NCBI RefSeq assembly: GCF_964340395.1
Contig: NC_135555.1
Location: 18,804,115-18,868,114 of the forward strand
Direction of reading: 5' to 3'
DNA from: Glandiceps talaboti
Lineage: Eukaryota; Hemichordata; Enteropneusta; Spengelidae
DNA: 64,000 nt
A program made the position numbers and the translations under genes. Below the pieces are notes generated by a model that was given only the letters and a program-made list of their open reading frames with translations, did not search any database and was not told the DNA's origin. Below, piece by piece: positions 7,301 through 64,000 of the stretch. The number at the start of each line of letters is the position of its first letter. Position 1 is the stretch's first letter.

Positions 7301-10300
7301 CGCAGATGAACCCGTAATGCCGCCATGTAACTTCCAACCTCAAGAATACAAGGTATTTTAACTTTTACTTGTTTTATTTAACTTCTGTTGTAGTTTCTAA
7401 TATTCTCAAAAAATATCTGCAAATAGGTCACATTGTAATAGTATACAGCTTGATTCAAACCTCATTAGTATTCATTTATGCTAATTATATGAATAAGTGC
7501 ACTTGTATGCTAATTAGATGAATTGTATTCAAATTTTATGATAATGAGTTGTAATAATGTTATTGGTTTAGATATGATAGCCAATCACCACCACTGGTCT
7601 TTTTGTTTGTTATGTGATTGTTAGTCACTTTTGATTGTTTTTCGATTTTAGGTCATATGATAGCCAATCACCACTGTAGGTCATTTGATGGTCAATCATG
7701 GAAAAGATCTTTTTATGGGTGGCCATGTGATGACAAATCACAATAGATGGTCTTTTTATAAGGTCAAGTGATAGCCAATCATCTTAGAGTATGTATAGAT
7801 GTTAGGTCACATGATAGGAATACTCTGTCTTGTGGTGGCCAATTGCTGTAGAGTAGAGGGTAATATAATAAGTCATGTGATCATTTTACAGGGTTTGTCC
7901 TATGAAGAGACAATGAAAGTACGCAGTGAGAGACTGACACCATCTCTGCTAACATACTATCAAAATAAACTAATGATTGTGGAGGGTCAAATGCAGTGGT
8001 TGTTTGATGAGAAGGGCAAAAGATATTTAGATCTGTTTGCTGGAATCAACACAGTCAGCGTAGGACACTGTCATCCGTAAGTATATAGATATCAAATCAT
8101 ATAGCCACATAGTTTTCACTCTTTTTGTATGGTTTATAGCTACCAGTCTGAATGGACCCCTTCAAAACCAATATCAATAATGTATACATGATTTGACAAC
8201 CATTCTTAGTATCATCAAAATGAGCTAAAAGTTTATCAAGTTATAAGACAATTATTATGGAGATCTAGAAAGTGAAATACAGTCTGTTGATAAATTTTCA
8301 AATATTGGTGTTGAAGGTTTAACTGTTTCAAACTGGTAGTTATCAATCACCAAAGTTGCTATATTGGGGTGAAAGGTCAAAGGTTAGCTACATGTATGTG
8401 CCATTCAAGTTCCTTATTTCTAATAGTATGAATAGTAATAGCTAGTAGTATGAATATTTAGCTGAATTGAGTTTCTAACTAATCAAACAGATAAAAGATA
8501 AACTTGTAGGCAGTGTAAGACAAATAAGTTTAAATTTTAGGTGCATATAACTTGATTTAGCTAACTTAAGCAGCAAGTTGTATTGAAAATATGAAAGAAA
8601 TAACATGCAATATGTGTAGGACTTAAGGAGAGGCATTTAGTGAACATCTGCAGGTAGAGTTTAAAAACTCCCAATGGTAAAGTTAGTAGACTTTTGTAAA
8701 TATGAGGACGTCCTGAATCTATCATGACTTAAAGTGGCCATATGGATGAGGATTAGGTATTTATTTTGGATTTTTAATTTATGAAACAATTTTATCATGG
8801 CTTCCTACAATGTGGAACAACATTGACAAAGTCTGTGTTTGTAACTCAATACATTGCAAAAAGCTAAAGAATGTAATATAAAGGTTTGTTATTGTACAAT
8901 ATAGTACATAAGAACAAACATTTTACACATTTATTAATCTTTTGCAATTTATTGAGTTACAAACAAGGGCTTGACATATGTTGTTCCTCATTGATTTTTC
9001 AAGTATGAAGCCATGATAAGATTGTTTTATAAACTAAAAAATCCTAAAATAAATATCGAATTCTCATCCATATGGCCACTTTAAGAAACATAGTGGAAGG
9101 ATGCATCCTGGTGATAACTTGAGATAATACACCCTAGATTAAAACCCTTCATTTTAGCGGCACCATTTTCAAGCCAGGAGCAGAGATAAGCATATTTTTT
9201 CAAATACACATTCTAGGCATCGACCGTCTAGAGGTCAGTGTACATGAATACCTGATATGCTACCATAAATAGAATCAATGGATGTGACATCATTCTTTCC
9301 TCAAAATGCTGAGAGCAGCCAAATTCATACATGTAGTCAATTTGAATTTAAATATGATTCTTAAAAAGCATGATTTAATTGCAGTAGGTTGTAAATATAA
9401 TTAAAATGATAATTGATAATGAATGACAAGAATAGGACTTGGATGGCACAAACATGTATGTCCACTATTTCCCAAGGGTTGGTCTCTTGTTTACTCCTAA
9501 AGGTTAGACCTATTACAGGTTAATAATATATTAAGTTATGTCCTCAGAAGGTTTTGATTGAAAACATATAATTTTATTTTAGATAATCTATAATGAATAT
9601 AAAGAAATAAAAAAGTGGTCGTAATAAAGACAGTCAACATAACAATGACTGCAGATTTTCATTAAAAATTTTATATAAATTTTTTTATTCATTGAGCTTT
9701 TGGCATCAGTAAGGCAGTCCACACAGGTGACAAACACCTATAAACATGGACCCAAAACAAATATACAACAGAAATAAAAGACATGGAAAACAACAGTTAT
9801 ACAAATTCACAGAAAAAAACCTGTGAAAGATGCCAATATTCCCATTAAACGACACTTAGCACAATGACAGATTAAGACTCGGAACAAGTATTTCAAAATC
9901 AAACTTATGCACAAGTTGTTAGTAATGGTGCACAATCTTAGTATTAAAATTTTGCTTTTATGATCAGCTAAAATTTTAAATGGCAATTTGTTTAGTCTGT
10001 AAGATGAAGACATTGTTTGCAATTAGAAGTTGGCTTATTTTTTTTAACATTTTTCATTTTGAATTTAAAAAGCTAGGGAGTTTTTATTTAAAGACAGTTA
10101 ATCCTGTGAACTGAAGTCTTAAAGATTTAATTTTATTTGGAATATTTTAATAAATCAATCATTTCGAAGATGACATGTGAAAGTTGAGATTTTCATTTCA
10201 TTTTACTCTAGTAAGTCACTATATATTCAGTGAAATTCTTAGAACAACTATTTTCTATGTTTGGCAAATAATAACACAAAATATGAAATAAGTTCATGAT

Positions 10301-27400: not shown

Positions 27401-28510
27401 CCCTATCGATCAGCTAATGGCGTGCAGTTAACAAGTCAATAATCTAACAGACGAGGGTATACCGGTAGTAGTAACTTGCGGGCACACCAATTATTACATG
27501 CCTAGGAGTTTGGAATTTACAAAAATAGACTAAGTCTTCAACATTCTATAGTTGACCACGTCGACGTCGCTGGGTAAAGTAAACTAAGGTTTGAACGGTA
27601 TATTTTATTCCATAAATTTAACAACGCTCACAGTAGCATGAGACACATTCACATACATAGCCAAAAACAATTCGAAAAATTTAAATTTCGAGTATTTTGA
27701 TGGGGAATTAATGGCTGGAATGTGTACGAAGCACTTACCTGCTTGTTGAGAACTACTGCAATGACTTCCATCCTGGTTTTCGTCGTATCCATCAGCACAG
27801 TCAAGAACTCCATCGCAAACATATTTTTGAAGCACACATTTAGGGGAACCGGTTGGACAGTTGAAGATTATACTGCTCGGTAATGTATCACATTGGTCAT
27901 CAGCTGAGGAAATCAGATGTAATGGAACGTTATTTCTGGATAAACGACTGCTATGATGTTTACATAAATATGGTGTAGAAACTTTGATAAAAACAATCCT
28001 CTAAGATGTAAAGTCCCTTAATTAAACGTTATCAAAAGCATCGAAGTTCAACGAGAAGGTTCCTATTTTATGTTTCTCAACTTTAGGGCTGTCGGTTGGT
28101 TGGTCAGGCGGGTGGTTAAAAGCACATGGCACAACAAACATGTTATTGATTGATCGATCGATCGGTTGATTGACTGATTGATTTGATTTGATTGATTGAT
28201 TGATTGATTGATTTGTTGGTTGGTTGGTTGGTTGGTTTTGATTAACGCAAAGAGTAAATCAATCAACCACATGTGTGCTGTCCCCTGTGGTTAAAAAGTA
28301 AGGAAATAATTGTCTTCAGTCACCTACCACTGTCACAACAAATAATGATGTACATGTACAGCTATGTGATCTCTTAGTCTTTGTTAATTATGTAGGCCTA
28401 ATTAATTTGAATTGAATTTGGTACTTAGTAAAAGTCAGGTCATTCAACGACTTACGTATTGCAGACACAGTGATGACAACCAAAACAAGTACAGCGAGTT
28501 GACGAATCAT
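24446..28510 (-). CDS. Small secreted protein with two LDL-receptor class A domains (3 exons)
   Basis: On the minus strand the exons are 28456-28510, 27739-27903 and 24446-24579. Splice sites are GT-AG, the phases agree (1 and 1), and 117 codons plus TAA result. Residues 1-18 (MIRQLAVLVLVVITVSAI) form a clear signal peptide. Exon 2 encodes one LDLa module with six cysteines and the calcium-cage signature VCDGVLDCADGYDE. Exon 3 encodes a second with six cysteines, ECNGSDDCLDRSDETSC, and stops right after it. LDLa modules bind calcium and usually mediate ligand binding. With no transmembrane segment, a soluble secreted protein is expected. Family members of this size are not well known to me, so no name is given. 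Candidate AATAAA signals on the minus strand lie at 24237-24242. Confidence 0.85.
25121..25148. repeat. Poly-G tract in LDLa gene intron
   Basis: A run of about 20 G, one T, then six G, in intron 2 of the minus-strand gene. Its length is likely unstable and may be imprecise in the assembly. Confidence 0.9.
25370..26090. repeat. Tandem repeat of about 240-bp units, three copies
   Basis: TTTAATAGCATCTTGACAGT recurs at about 25402 and 25638, with a diverged third copy near 25885. Each of the first two units also holds GGGTCCTAGGG..GTCTCCCCCT, a short GC-rich self-complementary core inside AT-rich DNA. It lies within the large LDLa intron. Confidence 0.75.
26903..27260 (+). mobile_element. tRNA-derived SINE with L2-like tail, copy B
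   Basis: Nearly the same sequence as the element at 22875, including GTTAGCGTGACCGGCTTGG, GGTTGCAGGTTCGAGCCCC (a better B-box match) and the tail AGCGCTATATAAGAACCCAA with ATT repeats. Small indels separate the two copies. It is intronic and opposite in strand to the LDLa gene. Confidence 0.88.
28140..28240. repeat. (GATT)n / (GGTT)n tetranucleotide repeat
   Basis: GATC/GATT repeats pass into GGTT repeats in the first intron of the LDLa gene. The NQINQS-type peptides read across it are artefacts. Confidence 0.9.
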
Positions 28511-37418: not shown

Positions 37419-37660
37419 ACAAATTTAATAAATATTATTAAAATATTCTCATACTTGACAGTTTCGCTGACAACAAGTTGCAAGTGCTGTTGTATACGTC
37501 GACATGATAAGGGAATGTAAATTTCATGTACTAGTATTCATTTGGTTTAGTCCAATAGTCAACAATGTTATATTGGGTTAGTAGGTGTAATAGTTGACAA
37601 TGATATGTTGAATTACGAGGTACAATATTCAAAGAAACACGTTAGTTTGGATACTAGGCA

Positions 37661-38560
37661 ATGTTAGATTTGGTTAGTATTATACAAAATGTAACAAAAT
37701 TTAGGAAAGCAAGAGCTTGCATTGACCATATTTATGTTATTACATCCATTGTTAGAAACAGGAAAATGCAAGGCCTTTCTACTTTTGCAGCATTTGTTGA
37801 TATGAAAAAAGCGTTTGATTGGGTAAATAGGGACATGCTTTTCTTCAAGTTACTTAAAAATGGTATATCTGGTAGATTTTACAGTGCTGTTAAAAGTTTG
37901 TATTGTCTTGTATAAATATTAATGGAGTTCCCTCCCCTTGGTTCCCAACAAGTTCTGGTGTTCGACAATGAGATGTCCTCTCCGCCACACTCTTTGCTAT
38001 GAATTTAAATGATTTTGCTACAGAGGTTAAGGATTTCCACCTTGGTATTCCAGTAGGTGATCAAGAAGTTGGCATCCTTTTGTACGCAGACGACATTGTT
38101 ATCCCTGCTGAAAATGAGGATAACTTACAAAGTGTTGTCCAGTATTTGGAAATTTGGTGTAAAACTGGCGTATGGTGATTAACAACAATAAAACACAGGC
38201 TGTGCATTTCAGACATCAGAATTTAGAACGATCAAGTTTTCGTTTTAATTATGCTGGGCAAAGAATACAGACAGTGTCATAATACAAATATTTTGGAGTT
38301 GTTTTAGATGAGCTTTTGAATTATGAAGTAACAGCCAACATTTTGTGTAATGCTGCTGGGAGAGCCTTAGGTGGAGTTATTTCTAAAATTGGTAAATATA
38401 AGGATTTTCATTATAATACATTTAATACTTTGTATAATTCCTGTGTGTTGCCGATTGTGGACTATTGTGCAGGAATATGGGATTTGGTCACTTTAAAAAC
38501 TGTGATGATGTACAGTATAGAGCCATTAGATATTTCATGGGAGTACACAGATTTATATGG
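37661..38560 (+). pseudogene. Broken non-LTR retrotransposon reverse transcriptase
   Basis: Fragments of one reverse transcriptase are spread over three frames. Frame 2 (37661-37915) has FVDMKKAFDWVNRDMLFFKL, the palm block around the first catalytic Asp. Frame 1 (37924-38165) has a degenerate GVRQ-stop-DVLSATLF and the catalytic LLYADDIVI (YADD at 38083-38094). Frame 3 (38169-38582) has KTQAVHFR, YFGVVLDELL and an AAGRALGGVISKI block followed by a CAGIWD motif. At least two frameshifts and several in-frame stops make it dead. The thumb block looks Jockey/CR1-like, but clade assignment is uncertain. No endonuclease domain is seen, so it is 5' truncated. Confidence 0.85.
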
Positions 38561-38800
38561 TACATGTATTTGTGTCTTATAAGCCCAGTGGGCTGGATGT
38601 GGCAACTCTTTAATTTATATGGTACATGTATTTGTGTCTTATAAGCCCAGTGGGCTGGATGTGGCAACTCTTTAATTTGTATGGTACATTTATTTGTATT
38701 GAATGAAAAGTTCAATTGGTAAGCCCACATAGGACACGTAAATAAATAAAATAAACAAACAAACAAACAAACAAACAAACAAACAAACAAACTAACAAAT
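38545..38800 (+). repeat. 62-bp duplication and (AAAC)n tail after the LINE remnant
   Basis: TATATGGTACATGTATTTGTGTC and CCCAGTGGGCTGGATGTGG occur in two full copies and a partial third from 38545 to about 38695. An AAATAAAACAAAC region with (AAAC)n follows at 38745-38792. The short simple-repeat tail fits the 3' end of a non-LTR element. Confidence 0.7.
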
Positions 38801-40194: not shown

Positions 40195-44608
<4,414 letters not shown>

Positions 44609-45959: not shown

Positions 45960-46189
45960 CAAGACAATGAGGGCAGTTTGTTTTTTTAATTGGAAGCAAA
46001 TAAATTGTTTGCTATGAATTTTGGTGTATATTTTATGAATATGTGATTACATTACCTAGAAATACGTAAATATAGAATTACAATGAGAAAGAAAGACACA
46101 TACAAGCTGCTCAGGGAAAGAAGGTATGATATCGAAATTTCATAAAATGCATGAATAAAACACTTTTTGATATCAAATGAAAAAAAAAT

Positions 46190-46430
46190 AGGTGGTGTAG
46201 GAAAATTAGCTACTGGCTTTGTCTTCTAAACACATTTGAAACAAAAAATCACGTGAATTTTCCAAAAGTGCTTCGACTTTCAGTTATCCCAACATTTCAC
46301 CTAATTTGGGGACCCCAATTTTTATTGCATGTATATCTAGTACATATATTTAGTTTTTTATGATAACAGTATAGATAAGAAAATGAGTGTAGATCTTATA
46401 CTATTTAACTAACTTAAGCATAAGTTTGGA
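46190..46430 (+). repeat. Dispersed repeat, copy 2
   Basis: Partner of 29160-29385, sharing TAGATAAGAAAATGAG and TTATACTAT. It ends about 300 bp before the transposon. Confidence 0.5.
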
Positions 46431-46738
46431 GAACTATTTGATTTTTGGTCGCAGAATTTGATAGTTTCGTTAATACTTCAGCGCAGAAAACTAAAGTAGG
46501 TAAATCATCAGATTCATAAATTATGGGCCAAACGTAAGTATTTCGACATTTGCACATATCGTTTTTATCTTGGCTTATTCATATTGTGACCCTAAAAAGA
46601 TTCGTTAAGAATGCGAGAAAAAAACACCAAGAAAATGTCAAAAAATGGAAGCATTCTACATCCGTTTGTCTGCGTCTTTTAAGTTTTAGCACGGCGTTAG
46701 AATCACGCGCGCGCGTATATCATGTGACCATGCAGCAA

Positions 46739-46778
46739 CGCGAATAGTCGACTTTCCGGTTCTCCCAGCATGCAAAGC
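46739..46778 (+). repeat. Left terminal inverted repeat of the ISL2EU element
   Basis: Starts CGCGAATAGTCGACTTTCCG and continues with GTTCTCCCAGCATGCAAAGC. It is 30/40 identical to the reverse complement of the right end. The base pair AA precedes it. Confidence 0.8.
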
Positions 46779-46893
46779 AGTATTTATAGTCAGAACGAGG
46801 CGGGGGGATACCTCCGCGATAATCGTCTGCCAGGCATAGCATTTGTATGGGAATTAGCAGACGTCGGTAGACTCCAATGTGTATTTTACAGAT

Positions 46894-49800
46894 ATGGGTA
46901 AAAAGGACAACTGTTGTGTTCCCTTTTGTTTTCGACAACGTTGGCGTGATGGGGGGAAATATTACAAGTTTCCAGTAGGGCCAAAATCACGTCGAAATGC
47001 GTGGATTGTAGCTGTACGATCTCATCGTAAAAACCGGCGGTCGTGGCAACCAAGTGTCCATCAAAAAGTATGTGCCGTACATTTCGTGAACAACATGAAG
47101 AGTGATGATCCTAAGTCGTCTTCATACATTCCAACTATTTTTCCTTGGCATAAGAATAAAGGCATCCAGAAAGAAGGGACTGGTCAAGTTGTAAACAAGG
47201 TTAGTTTAACTTTGAGACATTATACTACATTACAGAAGTTATAAGAATATAAGTGTGATCTTGATCAGAACGTCGTTTTATCAGTGGTGTACAAAGAAAA
47301 CTGGCTTTGAAGGTTTCGAAAAAGTCTACTTCTTATCATTATCAAACTAGGTACACACGACTCTCTTATCAGTTTGTTTATGTCTGTGTTAGTCATGTTG
47401 TAACATAAAATTCAAGAGTAAGCTTATTGTCTGGTCCTAAAATAAACTTTCAGGTATAACTTATATGTTCAGTTTTGGGCAAAAAATCGCCAACAAACTT
47501 GACAATACAACGAAAAGAATAAACACGACATTCAAGTTAGCACTGAATAATTACAACATATGTGGTCATGGAGTTTGTATTTTAGCAACTCGTGTTCTTG
47601 TGTGTACGGTGCTGACAAGTTGGGAGAATTTTTCGAAATCTTTGAACGGAAAAACTTCATTGTGGACTCTAAACGACAGAAATTATGAGTATTTCAGGAT
47701 AACCAGGTCAATGTCACATAGAAAGCCATCAATCATCTTTCTACATGGAGTAGCGCTAGTTGCTAGTGCTAGATTGACATCAAATATGATTTTCTAACTG
47801 TTAGTGTTACACTGTAGTGTAGTATACATGTAGTGTAGTGTCGGTCGTGTCGTGTAGAGTAGTGGTGAAGTGTAATGTCTTGTATAGTGTAGTGTAGTGT
47901 AGTGCAGTGTAGTATCGTGTCGTGTCATGCCGTGTCATGTCATGTAGAGTGTTTTTCCATAAAGTACAACTTCTGCATGTACAAGTTTGTTTTCTTGTGT
48001 TGTTTGAAATACACTCATTTTATATGTATAACCAAAACCAGTTATACATGTATTTCTTTGGTTTTCTTTTGTTGATTTCATTCATTCAATATTTGCTTCA
48101 TTTACAATTAATGAAAAAAAATGTTTTTATGTCATTTTTGGATGAATGATCATCGGTGTTCATGTTACTTTGTAATATGTTTTACATTTTATTTTGTCAC
48201 CCTTGAATAAATTAAATAATTATATCATTTGACATTTCAGGAAAACATGAACAAGGAGTTTGATCATAATACAACACAGGACATTAATCATGAGGTGGAA
48301 GATGAATGTACAGTAGATCAGGTAGGGAGCTATTTATTTATTTATTGCATTGTATAGATTTCCACTAATTAGAATTACTACTTTGCCAGATAATGTGCTG
48401 CAAGGAAGTAATGTAACTTAATGTTTACATATTTGTGCTACCACTGTTTTGTTTATATGTGTGTATATATGTGTTGTATTAAGGTTGTCTTTGACGTATT
48501 TTGTGTATAAATGTTGTGATAAACCACAGTGCTACAAAGTGTACATTTAACATCATTTCTAACTTTGACAAAACTTTGTATGTATTTCAGTGTAAGACAT
48601 CTAGTGGTGACATAAACTGTAACTCTTTCACTGGGACAGAGACTAACAGTAAACAGGTAATGATTATTTCCTTATCAGGTTATTCAGTATGGTTGTTCCT
48701 TATCAAATATTAGAGCATTGAACATTAACAGATTATTAATAAACTAAGTTGTATAGTTATTTTATGATATGGATTTCATGGTATTCTTATGTTATTCTAA
48801 TTTTTCAGTCAGGTGTTGATGTAAGTGAAAATGTAAATGTATGTTCTACAAAACTGATTGAGTGTGAGTTAGGTTCCAAAACACAGCCACAACCAGAACC
48901 ACAGTCTAATAGTGCAGAGGTAAGTCATATTGACATTTGGAAATCTAATTGATTATAATTTATCAAAATCATTCTATATGATTGAAAATAATTCATTCAT
49001 GTGAGCAGATACAAAAACAGAAAGTTCAGTTTGAGTTGTAACATTGTTCTTGTCATTGGGTTTTCACCAGATAATGTAAAGCCATAAACAAGTAAGAAAT
49101 CATGTTTGTGTTGTTTGCAGTTACAAAATGGAATCACTATATTGTGAGGTTCACTTTGTTTTTAACTGAAAGTTATAAGTCGATTTCCGTTTCCAAGATG
49201 CATTGTGCGAGAGGACGTCGCTTATACTGTTACATTTAGCCTTGTTTTGTCTTTGTTACATTTGAAATAACGTTTTCATCAGGAAATAATGGAAAGACAT
49301 TTTATCCTCTTTGATTATAAGTTATTTTATAGAACAAAGACTAAACATATCATCAATGCCAGAGAGGTATTTTACGAGTGTACACAGGGTACGGTCAGAT
49401 GACAACCATCCCCGGGCCCCTGCGTAGCGCATGCAAACCCCTCAGCACGTACACAATACATTGTATTGTATGGAGAGATGTGCAGTGCATCTTGGAACTG
49501 GCAACAGGTCTATTGACTCATTTGACTTGCAATGAACTTACACCAAGTTTCTTTCCTTTCCCTTAGCAGTTATCAGTCATTTCTACTGACCATGACTACC
49601 TCAGGACAACTGCTGATGATTTGTCATTCAAATTGGAAGAAAACATCAAAATCCAGGATCCTGAGTACTATGCTTATCTTAAGTTCCTAGAAACTCAAAA
49701 TCATCTCCTAAGGGAGGTTAATGAATTGTACTTTAGTAGACTTTTAACAATTTCTACCATTAAGGATGATAACATACAAATGAAATTTTGGACTGGCTTT

Positions 49801-50682
49801 CCAAATTATGCTATATTTTGTGCTATATTTGAATATCTAGAGTCAAAGGCAGTTAATTTACAGTATTGGCGGGGTGGGAAAGATAAACACACTCATTTCC
49901 ACAAAATCCGTGATTCAAACAAACCTGGTCCAGACAGAAAGATATCTCTGCAAGATGAATTCTTTATTGTGATGGTTAGATTGAGGGTTGGGTTGTTTAC
50001 ACGAGATTTGGCAAAAAGGGTTGGGGTGTCTGAATCAACAATATCACGTATTTTTGTCACATGGGTTAATTTTTTAGCTGTTGAATTATCCACCATATGT
50101 ACCATGCCATCTATTGAAGAAGCTAACCAAGGAAGATGTCATGCATTTGACAAATTTCCAGACACAAGAGTGGTTGTAGACTGCACAGAGTTATTTTCAG
50201 AGACACCATCATCATTAGCAGCAAAGAGGCAAACATGGAGTGAATACAAACATCATGATACATTCAAATTTTTAGTAGGGATTGGGCCAAATGGTGCAGT
50301 GACATATGTTTCTAGAATGTGGGGTGGGCGAGCCTCGGATAAATGCATAGTTGGTAACAGTAACTTTAAAGATTATTTAGATAAAGGTGACGATGTAATG
50401 GCAGACAAGGGTTTCACTGTTTCTGCTGAATTAACTGCCATTGGTGTTTCACTAAATGTTCCAGCATTCAAAGGTAGTGATAGGACTCAGTTATCAGCAA
50501 GGGAAGTTGAACAGTCTCGTAGAATATCAGAAGCTCGCATTCATATAGAGAGGGCTATAGGACGTATAAAAGCATTTCATATATTTGACAGTGACATGAA
50601 GCTTACAATGAATGGTTTAGCAGAGCAAATCTTCACAGTTTGTGCTTTCCTAGTGAATTTTCAATCTCCATTCTTAAAATAG
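46894..50682 (+). CDS. THAP-domain DDE transposase of ISL2EU element (5 exons)
   Basis: Exons 46894-47199, 48241-48321, 48591-48656, 48809-48919 and 49567-50682 are all phase 0 with GT-AG introns, giving 559 codons plus TAG. Residues 1-90 are a THAP zinc finger: CCVPFC at 7-12, FP at 26-27, Trp37, CAVH at 60-63 and a closing YIPTIFP. These bind DNA, presumably the element ends. A short Ser/Gln/Asn-rich linker spans exons 2-4. Residues 325-352 form a helix-turn-helix (LFTRDLAKRVGVSESTISRI). The DDE_Tnp_4 catalytic core follows with candidate residues Asp393 (VVVDCTE), Asp468 (VMADKGF) and Glu516 (IHIERAIGRIK). All are present, so the enzyme may be active. An upstream in-frame ATG at 46879 exists; 46894 is preferred because THAP proteins usually start within a few residues of the first Cys. 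The exon 5 acceptor could be three bases later. Confidence 0.92.
47808..47945. repeat. (GTGTA)n-type pentanucleotide repeat in transposase intron 1
   Basis: Irregular runs of TGTAGTGTAG passing into CGTGTCGTGTC and CATGTCATG variants. It is intronic and low complexity. Confidence 0.85.
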
Positions 50683-50794
50683 CATTGCAGTAGATGTTGA
50701 GAACGTTACCAATGGTAACAAGTCTTCACAAAGAAATGATGTGTAAAGAATGTGATGATCATGGTGTCTTTCTATTGCCATAATACAGGGGATT

Positions 50795-50846
50795 AATTGT
50801 CTGATATGGCATGCTACAATATTGACATATTTGGGTAGTTTTCTGT
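50795..50846 (+). repeat. 52-bp perfect direct repeat, copy 1
   Basis: This sequence, from AATTGTCTGATATGGCATGC to TTGGGTAGTTTTCTGT, is identical to 54120-54171. It lies about 110 bp after the transposase stop, probably in its 3' untranslated region. Confidence 0.95.
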
Positions 50847-52295
50847 CTCACTGAAATTGATACCGTCTGACATCAAAACTGCATGCTTGCAATGAATCCC
50901 CTGTAGTTGGCCAAAGAAAATGTTGTGACAAGTATATTTAGGTGCAGCCAATGGGCAGAGTTGTGGTTTTCATTAACTATGTTGTTTCAGACCAAAAATG
51001 ATGTTTTTAATAGAACTCCCCCCCCCCAAAAAAAAAAAAAAAAAAAAAAAATTGTGGGTGTTTAGCTGTTCTTATGTGCCCTCCCCCTGATGAAAGATAT
51101 ATACCACTACCCAACCAATATTGAGAATGACTTACACACTCCCACCACTGAAATGTTTGTACTCTCCACTATACCAACAATTCATTTTTATGTACACAAT
51201 GTTTTCCCCTCCCACTGTATCAAAATCATGACTTCCCTGCCTTTATTCTTCCTTGTTTGCACCTCTCGAGCTCTCCTGCTACTGATTGAAAAAATTGCCC
51301 ACACACTGAAAAATTACACAAGAACAAATTTGTTGACTGCACCTGTATATTACCATTTGTGACTGCATTCATGGTATCACTCACCAATGTACTTTCTCAC
51401 AGCTCAATCCATGTAAAAATTTCATTTTTAATATTTGATATTTATTATTTTATTTATATTGTATGGATTTGTACATGTAAAAATACTGTGAAGAGAATAA
51501 TATATTGCATACCATAAATTATATTTATTGATATATTACAAATTAATTTTGTGTTCCCACTAAATAAAGTGACAGGAAAATATTTACAAATGTGAAATAA
51601 GACTGTTGTGGAACAGGCTTTATATGAGATTATTATTGCTAAGAATAAGTGTCATTTACTTTGTAATACTGACAGCAATATTTTCATTACCAATAGGTAC
51701 AGGAAGACCAATACATTTTGGTACATGGTAACATTAAAATAAATAAACTGTGTACATGTATACATACTGTGTATTTCTTTTATACTAGCTTAGTTACTCT
51801 ACTTTACATATAGGCCAGAAAAAATAACAAAGCTGTTCAACGAGCAACGTAGCCCATCCCATTGGGTAGGTACCAGGTAGGTCGATTAAAAAAAAAAGAC
51901 AATCTTGGACAAAGAAGTTAAAACAAGCCATACATAATGATGACAAAACATTTCAAGTTGAGTTTGTATAGAACTTATATACAGTTATTTCACTCTTGCA
52001 TGCATCATCAGAGCCAAGTAAACCACTATATAACAAAGATTACACATAATTTGGAATTGACTCAAATGCACATTATTGTCACATGTATCATTCAGAAAAT
52101 ATAAAGAAATCCCCTTAATTTTGAAAAGAAAGTGTGCATTTTACTGACATGCGAAGCCCGTATTATATTGCCCATCACTAATGAAAAAAAAATGAAAAAA
52201 TTGAAATGCCAAAAATATGGGAAGGTTGCGCCTGTTGAACAGCTTTCAAGTTTTTCTGGCCTTAGATCAGTGTAGACACCTTACAATATCCAGGT
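50847..52295. other. Convergent 3' region between the two transposon genes
   Basis: This non-coding stretch separates the transposase stop from the YqaJ stop. It holds a C9-A20 tract at 51017-51050 and plus-strand AATAAA hexamers near 51563 and 51740 that could end the transposase transcript. I see no third gene here. Confidence 0.6.
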
Positions 52296-55200
52296 CTACT
52301 TATATATATACCTAACATCGTGAGGATACAACTTGACATGCCTTTGCACACGTCCAGTGAATAGTTCTGGGACAATACCTTCCAGGAAAAATGTCTCAGA
52401 CTTTTTACATAATGTATCATACAAGCCTTGGTTAAATTCAATTCTCTCCACATATACATAATACCCTTGTTCACCACATTCAGGGTCTAGAATTATAAAT
52501 ACACAGAAGTCACACCACAACCTGTTCATTATTCCCATCTGACCTAACATTTGATAATAATAATGATGCTTTTTGTTAAACTTTGGATTTTCATTTTCAT
52601 CAAGAAAAAGATAAAACTGACTGTTCTTGGTTCTTATGAGTTCCTTTACTGACAATCCATTATTTTCAGGGCATTTGATTTCAACTAAACCTTTAGTGAT
52701 ATCAACACTGGGATCATCTACATCGCCATCAATGCTACAACCTTGATGAGGTCTAACAATGTCAATCACAAACCCTTTTTGACAAACTTTCAACCCAACA
52801 TGGCCATTCCTATTCATGTATTTTACATATGAATCCCTAGCTGTGTCTTCAAGACCTAAACCTCGCCTGCACTGTGCTGGCATTGGTTTCCTATCATATT
52901 GCATTATTTCCCTTACAAGGCAGTCTGGTGGTGTTGAATACTGTCGCTTACATATTTTACCAAAGTGTGATGAAGAAATCCTACCAACCCGATAAGCATA
53001 CCAGTGTTTATTTTGTGACTGTCCCCTTGTATTTTTTTCTACTTTATCAATATCAGCTGCTGTGATTCCCATACTATTTTTAAATGTAACAAATTTATAT
53101 TTCATATCATCACTATGGAGATTACACTCATCACTGATATTTTCATCTCTTTCACATGACAACAATATTGTACTTGGACTTTTATTTTGGCTGGTATTTG
53201 TGAGAGCATGGGTCTGATTTGTTGGTTGATCCATGTCTATAATGTCATTTGTATCTTCAATTGTTATCTCTGCCCCCAAAGTGTCATCAAATGTAAGATC
53301 AACAATGAAATTGTCTTGAGATGTCTGTATCTGATTAACTTGAGACAAAATTGTACACATTTCCTGAGTGACAGATTGTGGCCTATATCTATGTAAAGCA
53401 AGGCTATTGCAGGCTGGCACTTTGACATCATTGTTTAGGAGTCTGTTTCTCAGATGTAATAGTTTATAGTAGTCCACCTTCTGCTGGCATGGAGACCTCC
53501 CATCATGACCACTAGCTTCTCCTCCCCAGTCTCTTTTCTCTTTACCATGCTCTGGTTTATAAATTGGTATCTCTGACATGGGTTTAGGAGTAACTCTGGA
53601 ATCTATCATGTGAAACAAAAAGTTACTGTTAGTGTTAGTGTTAGCAGACTGAATCATAATGGATATCTATAATTGTTATCAGGGTCTCTGCATTATTGGT
53701 TTCTTCTCATCAGATGTACAACCATTACAGATTAGAAGTTATATTTTATCATTTTAAATTGCTGTAAGTTTCTGCATTTACTGTTTCTTGCGAGACTTTA
53801 CAAATTTCGATTTCATTCATTTTGTCTCGAATATGTAAAAAAAAAAATGTTTAGGGTCAGCGTGAAAAACTAGGTGGGGTCAAGTAACTGGAACAAAACA
53901 ATTACTTTTCTTAGGCCTAATAAAATTCACTCAAAATGAAAAATAATATGTTACCCTAAAACAAAAGACTCATTCCCAAGGAATAGAACTGGCGTGGATA
54001 AAAATATCAACACTCATTCCCAAGAAATAAATTGGTATTGATGACAATATCAAACAAACATTAAAAATTTATTGAGTCAGAAAATATGAAATATATTAAT
54101 AAATTGTTATTATTTAAAAAATTGTCTGATATGGCATGCTACAATATTGACATATTTGGGTAGTTTTCTGTTTTAAAACTAACCTCTTTTGGCAATCCAC
54201 TTGCAAAGAACCTCTGTACAAGCAGGTCCCTCTACCAAATTTCGATAACCTTGTGCTACAAAATCTTCAAGGGCAAACAGTACTGCTGCAAAGTGACTGC
54301 AAGCTTCACCTAGACTGCAAAGCCAAAAGAATTTGAAAAAAAAATAAAATCAGTTTTAAACACTTTCATATATAAAAAAATTCACATGTTTGTATATGCC
54401 CATGTAGAGTCTAGCGCCAATGAAATAGTATATTGTTATCATGTATAATAGAAAACTAACATTGATTTACATGCATGTTGCTTGCAAAAAGGTCGAAAAA
54501 ACAAACATTTGCAACATATTAACACTTGTTATTATATAAATATAAATCCTTTAATACAAATTACTGAGTCTTTTCATACTCTGAGAGAAAATCCCCTGAG
54601 AAAATATTCAACACAAATGTAAGGAAAGGACTTCCCCCACTTCCTACAACCGTAACTGTGGGTGATGCATGTACTTCCTAATATGCTACAACATTTTGAC
54701 TTTGAAAATTACTTACCCAGCAACACATTGACATGAACCACCGACAGGTTCCCCTGCTTTGGTTAAAACGACGTACGTTTTGTATGTTACACCACTTCTT
54801 TGCGAGGCATTAACACTTGCTTTGACTATACAGAAAGTTTGACTATATTTGACATTGATTTCAATACTGTGTACGTGACCGGCATCCCACAATTTATACG
54901 CCTTCAATGCCTTGTAAGCACGCATAGCCTCCCTGTCAAATGTTCTGTCATTCGATGAGATTAGATAGAACTTGACGTTCTCCAATGTCATTTCTGGAAT
55001 TCTTCTGATATCAGTCGTCCAACCTGTCCGTATGTGGTCGAACTTTGGAAGACTACGGTATTCTTTGACAACAGCTTCGCTCAGTCTGGCAATCCCATGT
55101 AAACACTCTCTCTTGATGATAGGGTTTTCAAAATCTGTGCCGCTGGTCGAAAATCCGAAAGCAGTACACAGCCTTCCAATTAAATCATATTTCGTCCCCG

Positions 55201-55321
55201 AAAAATCAATTTCTTTCACTTTACATAAATCACGAAGTGCTTTCAACTTCAATACTTTTAAATCTTTGAAGGTGGAAGGAAGTTTCAACTTTGCCGCAGA
55301 CGACATTTCAATGCCCGCCAT
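52296..55321 (-). CDS. SAP-SWIM-YqaJ nuclease, accessory protein of ISL2EU element (3 exons)
   Basis: Minus-strand exons 54717-55321, 54184-54314 and 52296-53602 join in phase (2, then 1) to 680 codons plus TAG. Residues 21-52 match a SAP DNA-binding motif (LKLKALRDLCKVKEIDF, SGTKYDLIGRL). A SWIM zinc finger, CxC at 197-199 and CSH at 207-209, is split by the first intron, and its correct reassembly supports the splice model. An acidic, Asn/Thr-rich linker follows. The C-terminal YqaJ-type nuclease has GRISSSHF (452-459), GLGLE (Glu497), GCSIDGDV (Asp537), EIKCP (Glu553, Lys555) and YYYQMLGQM (Gln596), the expected metal and catalytic residues of the PD-(D/E)xK fold. It probably acts on DNA in the nucleus during or after transposition; its exact task is not known to me. 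The first ATG lies 127 bp inside the right end of the element. Confidence 0.9.
54120..54171 (+). repeat. 52-bp perfect direct repeat, copy 2
   Basis: Identical to 50795-50846 and in the same orientation. It lies in the second intron of the YqaJ gene, ending about 10 bp from the exon 2 splice donor at 54183. Confidence 0.95.
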
Positions 55322-55408
55322 TGTAACAACTTGTATTGTTTACATTCCGTCGCCTATGACGTTCACGATCGATACGGGATCCCCCTGACCTCCGCGCAAC
55401 CCTAGTTC

Positions 55409-55448
55409 GCAATGCATTGTGGGAGAACCGGCATAAGGTCTATTCGCG
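55409..55448 (-). repeat. Right terminal inverted repeat of the ISL2EU element
   Basis: Ends with CTATTCGCG on the plus strand, the mirror of the left tip, and holds TGGGAGAACCGG, the mirror of the inner block. AA follows it. Confidence 0.8.
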
Positions 55449-56530
55449 AAGAGAACGTACGTTTGGTTTATAGATGTGTGCATGGGCATCATGGCACAAT
55501 AAAGCTAAGATTGTGAATATATAAAATAACAAAATGAAAATAGAATTTAAAAACGAAACAAAAAACCCAGTCTTTTCCTATTGTAGAGGTAGATTTCTGA
55601 TGTAATGCATGTGATGTGTGAGTTCGAGAAATATATCGTGTCAAAATGAACGTTGGTGGCTCACTTCTGTAGCGAGTGTCGGATGATACATTGTTGCAAT
55701 TGGTTGCTAAGGGCGAGGACGCGCTCGCTCATGTCACCTTCTCCGCACACTATAACATAGACAGGGTTTTTTGCAATACAAATTTACACATTTCAACGTT
55801 TACACATTCATCGACACTGTCTTACAAGTAAATATTCTACAACCAGAATGTCCATATTTTAACGATAACCCATGAAAATATAAAGGAAAAACTACGCCGA
55901 TTTTCTGGATACGTGCGTTACCGATTACCGTAACATGGTACTCGCAGAGAGCCCGCGTGTTGCTGTTTCGTCGCAAAGCAGGCATTACCGTAATGTGTGT
56001 TTCGATCGATCTCGACTAGATGGTGTACGTCCTTGACCTTGTTGCGATCGGCTTTGTTTATCTTCAAGTTGTGGGTAAGGCCATGGAAGTATAACCCACG
56101 ATAATACATATGTGTTTGTTTTGACATGCCTTCATTGCTTCATCATTGGCAATATATTACAATGGTCACCGACTCACCATGTGTGATTACATATGAGCAG
56201 TTCACTTACAAGGTAATGTTTACAGTGATTTTTTTACCTACTGTATCTTGTTTCCAGAGTTTGATTACGTCTTGCCGACGCCTAACATGCTGTGGTAGTT
56301 GCAGTAAATTAGTTTTGAAAATGTTGCTTTCAGTCTAGTCATTGCTTAGTTATTTTGTAATCCAGCATATTTGTTTATGGTCAAGTTTTCCCGAATAATA
56401 CTTTATAAACAGCTATAGACTAGTTAGTACTGTTTATTTTTATTTTTTATTTTTTTTTATAAAATGCTATTTTCAGTCAATGTTAATTTTACACAAACGT
56501 TTATGACCCCCCCCAAAAAAAAATAAAATA

Positions 56531-56566
<36 letters not shown>

Positions 56567-57431
56567 AAAACAAATCACATTTGGTGTAAAAATATCTAAG
56601 AATAAATCTAGGTTTTCTTGCACCTAGAAAGTCTGAAGTACTAGTGTGAGTGTCAATTAAGCAACATAATCATAATTTAATCATAAATTGACAGTTTGAT
56701 TTGCTGTATTTTATTTCATCGAAATAGATTGCTCCAAAATAACCAACTTCTGAGACAATGTCTTGCTGCATCATCCATTAAATCCCCATTTCAGCATTCT
56801 TGAGGAAACTAAATTTGTCCTGTACTCTTCCTATAATGGAAAGTGTGTTTGCTAAGGGTTTGGAACCCTGGTAACAAGAAGTAGCAAATCTGGTGAAACT
56901 GGCACAGTTTCCCATATACTATTTACAAGGATTTCTGCCTTCAACGCCTGTAAAAATCGTTCAGTTTGACTCTACCGTGCAACGCAGGTTTTCCCGGGGT
57001 ACTCCGCTTTCCTTCTACATAATTAATACTGAACCTATGAGGGATGGCCCTCACAGAACATCTTGGGAGATAAGTGTTTATATACTTAAAGACATATCCA
57101 GTATCAATAAAAAATATTTCTTTTTTATTTATAACGATTGACTGAGGCGATGTATTCGGTATCTATTTCTACATTATCGAATAAACTATGCAATTAAGAT
57201 TTTCTCACCCATTTTACCATCTTGTTTTGGTTTAACGCGATTTTTACCACCATTTCAAGTTCTTCGTCACTAGTATGAAAATTCTTTCCAAGCTAAATAT
57301 ATTTGTCGTAACTGACGCATTCACCATTGTAAGGTTATTGGTTCAATTGCGTCGGAATTCTCGTCACATGCGCACCAACGAAAGTGTTCATCGAAAAAAA
57401 CCCTCCACTATCTTTTATTATTGTTTTTCAG
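55449..57431. other. Spacer between the transposon and the repeat-protein gene
   Basis: AT-rich, with an (ATA)n tract at 56530-56570 and a copy of the dispersed GCTAAGG...CCCTGGTAACAAGAAG motif near 56850. A 5' exon of the following gene should lie somewhere here, because the acceptor at 57430-57431 needs one. I could not identify it. Confidence 0.45.
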
Positions 57432-59163
57432 GAAAACTGTCGTTGAAACAATCAATCTTACACCTCGTCAAGTAAACTGTAGTAATGAAGAATGCAGGAG
57501 TGTTTTTGATGACGGACAGATAGTCATCGAAAGGAAGACTTCTCCTCTCTCTCAGTGTGAATTAACGATGGACATGTCATCCAAGACTGTGCTGCCTAAT
57601 GCAGTGAGTGGAGAAGATTATGAACGTGACGTCACTAATGCAATAACCAGTAACCAAGGTATGACTAGTAATCACGTAATGGACTTGGAGTCCTGCATGT
57701 CAGAATTGTTAAAGAATTTAAAGATACCAGTCGATGGTGATGACAAAGATAGTACTCATCTTAAAGTAACTAATCTGGACCAATCTAAGTCGAAAATTCT
57801 GTTTATGAAGGTTGTGGAGGGTCAAAGGTCTAACGACCTTGTACTTCATGCTGTGATGGATAGCCCTCTAAAGAAAGTTGATAAACCCAGGAATGATCAC
57901 TGTATGCCAGAAAGTCAGAACTCAAAAGTCGATAAATGTATTAATGAAACTGACGGTAAAGATAAAGATAATAATATTATCAGTGATACGGTTAGTGATA
58001 GTAGTAGTTACCATGGTGATAATGTGGATACCATAGCGACTAACAATGATGACAGCATCATTGAAGTTGACCATTTAAAACATGCTGAAGTAAAAAGTTT
58101 CGAAGATACAGATTCTTTTATCACAGTCACAGAATTGTCTACATCTATCCAATCTGTACAAGGCATTCAGGGATGTTGTAAATGTGAATCCATTGACAGT
58201 ATCGTACACTCATCAGTTAGTGTCTCGATTGCCGAAAGCATTCAAGGGAGTCCATGTGAATCAATTGACAGTATCGCAAACTCAGTTAGTGTCTCGACTG
58301 TAGAAGGTATTCGAGGGACTCCATGTGAATCCATTGACAGTACTGTAAACTCAGTTAGTGTCTCGACTGCCGAAGGTATTCAAAGGAGTCCTTGTGGATC
58401 CATTGACAGTATCGGAAACGCAGTTAGTGTCTCGACTACCGAAAGCATTCAAGGGAGTGCACATGCTTGTGGATCCATTGCAGGTATCGGAAACGCAAAG
58501 GAGATTAAAATAGACGTGTATATGGTTGAGATTTCCAGAGACTCAGTGAGTGTGAAGTCTGTAACAGTTCGGAATGACTCCACTACAGTTTTTTCTGAAG
58601 TGAACACCACGGCCAGTCTATGGTCTTCAGAAATTACTGTAAACACTGCCATCGCCAAATCCTTCAGTGAAGCCGACAAGATGGTCCTAAACACACTTAA
58701 ACGAAAGTCTAAAATCCCGGTGTATGCACAGAAATTGCAACTGACCAAACATCATTCCAAGACTATTTGTGAGAAGAAAATCTGCAAGCCTGCTAAGAAG
58801 TTTAAATCTACAATTGTTCCATCTTTATCTAGACCAAACAGTGTGTACTCGAGAAAGGCAAAACACGTCACGGTGGCAACTGAATTATCCAAAGTTCAAA
58901 GTGTACATGGAGACGTAAAGAAGAAAAACGATGTTGAAGTGTCTGTGGGCAGTACACGCCATCATAAAGAGGAGAACGGTAGAAGTGAACACGTAAGAAG
59001 AAGACGTCCCAGCAAAATCCCCGTCAGTCAGAATGATCATATGAAATTGCACGAGACTTTACACGATTTGCAAGAAAAGGTGGATAGGCTAATGAAATCT
59101 GTGAACGTGACAAGGAAGTGGTGGAACCCACTCGTGAAGAAAACTTCACGTGTCTATCCATGA
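57432..59163 (+). CDS. Unrecognised Ser/Thr-rich repeat protein, plus-strand copy (long exon)
   Basis: A long open frame follows a good acceptor (TTGTTTTTCAG) and stays open to TGA at 59161-59163, about 576 codons; I do not recognise the family. From about 58140 to 58490 it holds five in-frame units of 23-25 residues (for example CESIDSIANSVSVSTVEGI), spaced 69-75 bp apart. Then comes a Ser/Val/Thr-rich part, a Lys-rich part, and a basic RRRRPSKIPVSQ stretch before a predicted coiled-coil (LHETLHDLQEKVDRLMKSV). No signal peptide or membrane segment is seen; a nuclear or cytoskeletal protein is conceivable but only a guess. An inverted paralogue lies at 62893-64000, and conservation of frame between the two argues for a real gene. 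The paralogue has AGA (Arg) at the TGA position. Confidence 0.65.
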
Positions 59164-59709
59164 GGAGGAAATTACATTGGAAAAGTGTGTAATAAGACAC
59201 ACCCATCTATCAATCATAAACCCACTGATATCAAGAATCAAAGAGAACATGATGAGACATCCCATAAGATGTTGACCATCAACACCAAACCAAAACAAAA
59301 ACTGGTTAAGTTTAACCTCAATGTATGTATGTATGGCAGGATTAGATGTATCAAGGCAAAGAATTGTCTCTGTCGTCAAAAAAACACTTGTACAGAGAAA
59401 CGCAAGATCAGAAATAGTCCAGTGCAACAATTCCAGGATGACCCTATCATTATAGGAAGAAATGTTACGATGCAAAGATTTCTGAAAGACATCTTTACGT
59501 GTGATTTGCCACCTCCATACGACATAAAGAATATGAATGTACAGGGCACACCCAGTGGTATCCCAGAAATTTACTACGATGATTCGTTGTCGGAAGTTGA
59601 TGAAGAAGACCTTGTAAACCATTCGATATCGAGAGCGCATAAAATGCAAATCAGAAATAGTATTATAGGCTTAACGATTTATGATATGTTAGATGACACG
59701 AGTAAGTAA
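59164..59709 (+). pseudogene. Continuation of the repeat protein beyond the in-frame TGA
   Basis: The same reading frame continues for about 180 codons and matches the minus-strand paralogue closely. It includes a Cys cluster (CMYGRIRCIKAKNCLCRQKN followed by TC), FTCDLPPPYDIKNMNVQGTP and an acidic SLSEVDEEDLVNHS block. The TGA therefore interrupts an ancestral frame of about 760 codons. Near 59702 the sequence A|GTAAGT makes a good splice donor, so the intact gene may have continued to another exon. Either this copy is truncated, or the base is an assembly error or polymorphism. Confidence 0.65.
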
Positions 59710-62892: not shown

Positions 62893-64000
62893 TCATAAAT
62901 GGTTAAGCCTATTATACTGTTTCTGATTCGCCTTTAAATTATGCGCTCTCGATATTGAATGGTTTACCAGGTCTTCTTCGTCAACTTCCGACAACGAATC
63001 ATCATAGTAAATTTCAGGGATACCACTGGGTGTTCCCTGTACATTCATATTTTTGATGTCGTATGGAGGTGGCAAATCACATGTAAAGAGGTCATTCAGA
63101 AATTTTTGGATCAGAACATTTGCCGTTTCTGTAATGATAGGGTCCTTCACTGGACTATTTCTGGTTTTGGGTTTCTCTGTACAGGTGTTTTTTTTACGAC
63201 AGAGACAATTCTTTGCCTTGATACATCTAATTCGGCCATACATACATACATTGGGGTTAAACTTAACCAGTTTTTGTATTGGTTTGTTATTCATAATCAA
63301 CATCTTCCGGGATATCTCATCATCTTCTCTTTGATTCTTTATATCAGTGGGTTTATGATTGACAGATGGGCGTGTCTTATTGAAAACTTTTCCAGTGGAA
63401 TTTCCCCCTCTTGGATGAACACGTGAAGTTTTCTTCACGAGTGGCTTCCACCACTTCTTTGTCACGTTGATAGATGTCATTAGTTTGTCAACCTTTTCTT
63501 GCAAATCGTGTAAAGTATTGTGCAATTCAATATGATCATTCTGACTGATGGGGATTTTGCTGGGACGTCTTCTTCTTACGTGTTCAGTTTTATCGTTCTC
63601 CTCTTTATGATGGTGTGTACTACCAACAGACACTTCAACATCGTTTTTCTTCTTTACGTCTCCATGTATGCTTTGACGTGCACTCCCTTGAATGCTTTCG
63701 GCAGTCGAGACTCTAAGTGAGTATACATTACTTTCAATGGATTCACAAAAGACACAAGGACTCGCTTGAATACCATCTACAGTTGAGACACTGACTGAGT
63801 TTACGAAACTCTCAAGCGATCCACAAGAACTTACTTGAATACCATCTACAGTTGAGACACTGACTGAGTTTACGAAACTCTCAAGCGATCCACAAGGACT
63901 TCCTTGAATACCATCTACAGTTGAGACACTGACTGAGTTTACGAAACTCTCAAGCGATCCACAAGGACTTCCTTGAATACCATCTACAGTTGAGACACTG
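62893..64000 (-). CDS. Unrecognised repeat protein, minus-strand paralogue (partial, runs off the window)
   Basis: One continuous minus-strand frame runs from the window edge at 64000 to TGA at 62893-62895. The upstream part holds 23-residue units (ESFVNSVSVSTVDGIQ.SPCGSL) with a 69-bp period from 63772 to the edge. Then come DVKKKNDVEVSVGST, the basic RRRRPSKIPISQ stretch, a coiled-coil (LHNTLHDLQEKVDKLMTSI), the Cys cluster and the DLPPPYDIKNMNVQ and SEVDEEDLVNHS blocks also found at 57432-59709. Relative to that copy it lacks about 145 residues after ESIQGSA and reads AGA instead of the premature TGA. Its last dozen residues differ because of a small indel near 62940. The start and any 5' exons are outside the window. 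Function unknown. Confidence 0.7.
   Translation of the reverse strand, partial: SVSTVDGIQGSPCGSLESFVNSVSVSTVDGIQGSPCGSLESFVNSVSVSTVDGIQVSSCGSLESFVNSVSVSTVDGIQASPCVFCESIESNVYSLRVSTAESIQGSARQSIHGDVKKKNDVEVSVGSTHHHKEENDKTEHVRRRRPSKIPISQNDHIELHNTLHDLQEKVDKLMTSINVTKKWWKPLVKKTSRVHPRGGNSTGKVFNKTRPSVNHKPTDIKNQREDDEISRKMLIMNNKPIQKLVKFNPNVCMYGRIRCIKAKNCLCRKKNTCTEKPKTRNSPVKDPIITETANVLIQKFLNDLFTCDLPPPYDIKNMNVQGTPSGIPEIYYDDSLSEVDEEDLVNHSISRAHNLKANQKQYNRLNHL
63772..64000 (-). repeat. 69-bp coding tandem repeat (incomplete at window edge)
   Basis: Copies start at 63772, 63841, 63910 and 63979, exactly 69 bp apart, and are almost identical. Sixty-nine is 23 codons, so the frame is kept. The array continues beyond the window. 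Confidence 0.95.

Follow-up and report, generated by a model that had tools for sequence, protein, structure and literature searches.

Results and Discussion

Two Open Genes at the Locus

The window, a 64,000-nucleotide stretch of a Glandiceps talaboti contig, carries two convergent spliced genes between imperfect inverted ends at 46746–55441, with no internal stops. The gene on the + strand has five exons and encodes a predicted transposase of 559 aa, and the gene on the – strand has three exons and encodes a predicted protein of 680 aa with a YqaJ exonuclease domain. All six introns are of the GT-AG type, and the splice sites of both genes were read from the sequence.

46746..55441, candidate ISL2EU element, 8,696 bp (inverted ends and AT in A|AT|T; left border also from genome copies)
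46744..46745, left AT target duplication (sequence reading)
46746..46774, +, left terminal inverted repeat (within the left arm of a 36-nt inverted match)
46894..47199, +, transposase exon 1, THAP (splice reading, Pfam)
48241..48321, +, transposase exon 2 (splice reading)
48591..48656, +, transposase exon 3 (splice reading)
48809..48919, +, transposase exon 4 (splice reading)
49567..50682, +, transposase exon 5, HTH_Tnp_4 and DDE_Tnp_4, ending with the stop codon (splice reading, Pfam)
52296..53602, –, YqaJ gene exon 3, YqaJ nuclease (splice reading, Pfam, phage and PHROG matches)
54184..54314, –, YqaJ gene exon 2, remainder of a SWIM-type pattern (splice reading, pattern)
54717..55321, –, YqaJ gene exon 1, weakly SAP-like, with the start of the SWIM-type pattern (splice reading, pattern, profile)
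55413..55441, –, right terminal inverted repeat (within the right arm of the 36-nt inverted match)
55442..55443, right AT target duplication (sequence reading)

The transposase matched Pfam DDE_Tnp_4 (residues 392–552, E = 5e-42), HTH_Tnp_4 (E = 1e-13) and THAP (E = 4.6e-8), all above the curated cut-offs, and it contains the THAP pattern C-x(2-4)-C-x(35-53)-C-x2-H. The DDE residues D393, D468 and E516 are in place. E516 was picked from five glutamates within the 70 residues after D468, and we take it to be the third catalytic residue by the Harbinger-type motif. An alternative CAG acceptor three bases downstream of the final acceptor also leaves the frame open (558 aa). The NCBIfam IS5 model matched below its cut-off, and a plasmid search with a transposase exon returned six records of distant IS5-type or unnamed proteins at 23–31% identity. 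Close-relative searches of viral_contigs and genome_contigs returned no relatives of the transposase. AlphaFold2 without an alignment gave a mean pLDDT of 34 for the DDE exon and 30 for the YqaJ exon.

The second protein matched Pfam YqaJ (E = 4e-12, 47.1 bits against a cut-off of 22) and Viral_alk_exo (E = 6e-9, above the curated cut-off). D537 and E553-x-K, which we presume to be the YqaJ nuclease residues, are in place. A SAP match on exon 1 alone (0.012) fell below the cut-off. A single SWIM-type CxCx7CxH pattern lies at residues 197–209; it is complete only after exons 1 and 2 are joined within codon 202, which mildly favors the splice model. The Pfam SWIM model itself gave no match in this protein at E 0.1. 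Proteins with SWIM and YqaJ are annotated in animal databases; searches of the open PMC library listed no paper recognizably on the combination in a transposon.

The YqaJ nuclease part matched 34 phage records, with 23–29% identity in the 15 of them listed, and none of the 34 spans 80% of the query. PHROG 149 and 434 matched at 8e-8 and 3e-7, the NCBIfam lambda-exonuclease model matched below its cut-off, and PDB 3syy matched weakly (E = 0.067). A close-relative search of viral_contigs found no relatives of the YqaJ exon. Judged by these matches, the nuclease part resembles phage RecE/lambda-type exonucleases. Its core is like that of the PHROG 149 and 434 enzymes, but here the nuclease is joined to a long N-terminus and lies on a eukaryotic transposon.

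A preliminary description of this DNA had called the element apparently intact, with 559 and 680 codons reading cleanly through the splice junctions, the DDE, THAP and YqaJ residues in place and matching inverted termini just outside the genes. For the coding sequence all of this was borne out, both frames being open, and the termini are present as an inverted match of 36 nt.

Borders and Copies in the Genome

The inverted match (46739–46774 and 55413–55448, 78% complementary) is the longest among 50 inverted pairs in 46000–56200. A 17-nt core common to both ends is absent elsewhere in the window at ≤3 mismatches. This core alone is no proof of the ends, because 36 of 100 shuffles contained at least two matches at the same tolerance; the proof rests instead on the position outside both genes and on the genome copies. 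The junctions read gcgA-AT-AGTCGACTTTCC on the left and AAGGTCT-AT-Tcgcg on the right, so that this one insertion, gcgA-AT-[AGTCGAC ... AGGTCT]-AT-Tcgc, has an AT duplication in an A|AT|T target. The element ends start AGTCGAC (left) and AGACCTT (right, inverted), both with AG. The pre-insertion site would be CGCGAATTCGCG, a palindromic AATT target, and the predicted empty site joins the flanks as ...GCAACGCGAATTCGCGAAGAG.... A palindromic pre-insertion site would also explain why the inverted match seems 7 bases longer than the ends. The outer CGCGAAT/ATTCGCG is better read as target plus flank than as transposon end.

The first 2 kb (46739–48739) were used to search the species' own assembly (590,416,875 bases, 47 contigs), in which 40 of 810 candidates were scored and gave 196 matches; the figures below refer to the matches listed. 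Six nearer copies were found at 87–98% identity over the aligned parts.

C18:8621806, 94% over query 5–2000
C17:5627333, 98% over query 5–676 and 94% over query 1148–2000
C26:6636908, 97% over query 5–676 and 94% over query 1158–2000
C6:23441508, 96% over query 40–676 and 95% over query 1153–2000
C1:26659396, 96% over query 5–892
C10:2453550, 87–89% over query 105–2000

The remaining matches listed, excluding the units of an array on C10, were at 71–92% identity. The genome therefore holds a family of this element, with more diverged relatives besides, and the further copies for which the preliminary description proposed to search do exist. No very recent sister was seen among the 40 of 810 candidates scored.

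These copies also locate the left border. Among the matches listed, 18 start at query base ≤13 (not counting the window itself and two matches starting at bases 22, on C16, and 40, on C6). Sixteen of the 18 start at query bases 5–13, and seven of these at base 5, which is the A of A|AT. This is the pattern that CGCG as flanking DNA would give, and it supports a left border at 46746. The other two start at bases 1–2 and speak against it. The preliminary description had placed the ends at 46739 and 55448. If the inverted repeat began with CGCGAATAG, matches to the other copies would be expected to run from query base 1, and 16 of 18 begin later. Those borders overshoot by 7 bp at either end, and the A|AT|T reading gives 46746–55441; as for ends that coincide with the borders of other copies, 16 of 18 left-end matches agree with the corrected left position and two do not.

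The relative on C10 (G000:C10:2453550-2457711) includes a tandem array with a 41-bp unit derived from its own subterminal DNA (query 105–150, window 46843–46888). The array spans about 4 kb, which would be roughly 98 units if the spacing among the matches listed is constant, and appears to be a satellite that arose from a transposon end.

Comparison with Known Transposon Groups

ISL2EU elements, according to the available text of Han et al. 2015 (PMC4482050), have a transposase with DDE, HTH and THAP domains, a second gene with a YqaJ exonuclease domain, inverted ends and an AT duplication in A|AT|T. The element has all of these, the three transposase domains above their Pfam cut-offs. It differs from that account in ends that start with AG where GG is usual, and in a length of 8.7 kb, nearly double the mean of about 4,840 bp. 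The SWIM-type pattern of the second protein goes without mention in the available text of the ISL2EU papers. By its domains, gene content and target, the element is assigned to the known ISL2EU group as a further member, and the membership claimed earlier is well supported, the inverted ends and genome copies included.

Two related groups were considered. Spy, the sister clade of ISL2EU (PMC11304231, available text), has a DDE transposase related to that of the element, but it has one transposase ORF and an AAATTT target without duplication (available text of PMC4482050 and PMC11304231). The AT duplication and the two genes found here place the element outside Spy. PIF/Harbinger elements share the two-gene organization and a related DDE domain, but have a TWA duplication and a Myb/SANT second gene (PMC4482050, available text). 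With AT in A|AT|T, a YqaJ second gene and no Myb match in Pfam at E 0.1, the element falls outside this group as well. Very probably, the 46746–55441 stretch is an ISL2EU element of the PHIS superfamily, a DNA transposon of the cut-and-paste type with several exons in each gene and putative autonomy.

Nested Repeats and Non-coding History

Three nested inverted-repeat elements lie in the element, all in non-coding parts.

47415..47885, intron-1 stretch of about 471 bp, absent in some copies (genome search)
49177..49511, nested 335-bp inverted-repeat element in intron 4 (inverted-pair scan)
50786..50903, nested 118-bp element with CAGGGGATT ends and TA flanks (inverted-pair scan)
51813..52261, nested 449-bp element with GGCCAGAAAAA ends (inverted-pair scan)
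54120..54171, 52-bp exact duplicate of 50795–50846 within a YqaJ intron (0 mismatches)

The ends of the 335-bp element are like those of its host, and it is probably an ISL2EU-type miniature element. The first copy of the 52-bp repeat, 50795–50846, is part of the nested 118-bp element. The second, at 54120–54171, is in direct orientation relative to the first and is flanked on both sides by TTTAAAA-like sequence; it is possibly templated filler from break repair.

Of the six nearer copies, C17, C26 and C6 all lack the 471-bp stretch at one and the same position, whereas C18 and C10 have it, as does C1 within the extent of its match. Query 662–1014, which crosses the junction of this stretch, recurs at 73–76% identity at 16 other places among the matches listed (one matching as query 612–987 and one as 662–1003). 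Given this recurrence, insertion in some copies and deletion within an older repeat in others are equally likely. All 16 places, again among the matches listed, have a piece of query 524–689 nearby on the opposite strand. The intron-1 segment 47262–47752 reads as part of another repeat family. "Intact" thus describes the coding sequence, and the non-coding parts carry a history of their own. Rfam found nothing in the window at gathering scores and nothing in 46000–56500 at E 0.1.

Age and Activity

No disabling change was found in 3,717 coding bases, across which 4.3% of weighted single substitutions would create a stop. With an assumed indel/substitution ratio of 0.05–0.2 and an assumed 85% of indels disabling, the 95% bound on neutral divergence since insertion is 0.94–0.38%, provided that the assembly is correct and that the copy has evolved neutrally from its insertion onward. 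Over the aligned part of the mostly non-coding first 2 kb, the nearest copies found show 94–98% identity, a distance of 2–6%. The two figures are compatible because the distance between copies includes changes in the mother lineage while it was active. This copy may have inserted recently enough for both genes to have escaped disabling changes, and it may be autonomous. The element may also have moved fairly recently, with its present mobility putative. The recent activity proposed in the preliminary description is therefore upheld to a moderate degree only, given the 94–98% identity of the nearest copies over the aligned parts.

The same distance of 2–6% is also what a dead or silenced ISL2EU copy might present, one whose frames survived by chance and whose ends, splicing or promoter no longer work. 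We regard this as a serious competitor, at somewhat under an even chance. The imperfect ends and the several nested repeats inside agree with it, but if it has been neutral since insertion, at most about 0.4–0.9% of decay could have accumulated, so such a copy would have to be young, and the AT of A|AT|T has remained recognizable at either end. Host selection would likewise keep both frames intact if the genes were a host pair domesticated from an ISL2EU element. This we consider very unlikely, given that the two genes still lie together between inverted ends and a target duplication and that sequences closely related to the left end are present at many genomic sites. Slightly less probable again is that assembly or polishing partly produced the intact frames. 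The analysis is based on one assembly, yet errors should break frames far more often than preserve 1,239 codons in eight exons. An ISL2EU transposon with both genes open remains our preferred reading.

Both ORFs are intact here, which is the sense of "potentially active" in the available text of PMC4482050, where 12 ISL2EU families of this kind were counted by 2015. The authors of PMC9179366 write that they knew of no reported proof that ISL2EU elements are active. A mutation-accumulation study of Daphnia magna recorded PIF-ISL2EU once as a gain and once as a loss (PMC8594854), which suggests present-day mobility of the group.

Proposed Role of the YqaJ Protein

The function of the second ORF in ISL2EU is given as unknown in the available text of PMC4482050. 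In PIF/Harbinger, transposition requires the second protein, and in Harbinger3 it binds the ends, while the transposase depends on it to localize to the nucleus (PMC2836001, available text). In ISL2EU a THAP domain is part of the transposase itself, and the second gene encodes a protein with a nuclease domain. In the mechanism we propose, the THAP domain would recognize the ends or subterminal DNA, and the DDE domain would cut at the ends and join the element to a target. Cutting of A|AT|T with a 2-base stagger would produce the AT duplication. The second protein, probably a lambda-type exonuclease whose SAP-like and SWIM-type N-terminus would bind DNA, would then trim or resect the broken donor ends, and repair of the gap from a homologue would restore a copy of the element. 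As the most probable role of this protein we favor resection of the donor gap, so that homologous repair can follow.

A fuller version of this idea is speculative, and we hold it to be improbable as a whole. It would make the YqaJ protein an element-encoded recombination nuclease that binds ends through its SAP-like and SWIM-type N-terminus, resects the gap left by excision and promotes its repair from a homologue, so that a cut-and-paste ISL2EU element becomes effectively replicative; the 52-bp duplication and the 471-bp difference in intron 1 between copies would then have been left behind by repair that broke off. Because its two genes are open and its ends defined, this copy offers a starting point for asking whether transposition needs the YqaJ protein.

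Neighborhood of the Element

The preliminary description had set the open element against a LINE and a gene nearby, both wrecked by frameshifts. The LINE-like sequence at 37658–38579 consists of three pieces in three different frames, two of which matched RVT_1 below the cut-off, consistent with a broken LINE as described. The gene at 43.3–44.6 kb contains a frame change and an in-frame stop, although the frame change could be an intron. A DUF7869 match at 43721–44203 lies in one piece of this degenerate-looking gene.

About 1.9 kb separates the end of the element from an open frame at 57316. Related open frames in opposite orientation lie at 57316–59709 (+) and 62893–64000 (–), with 69-bp tandem repeats, and Pfam gave no match for 57316–59163 or 62896–63999. 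Elsewhere in the window, an exon-like piece at 7799–8077 (+) matched Aminotran_3 below the cut-off, and another at 27608–28000 (–) matched LDL-receptor class A.
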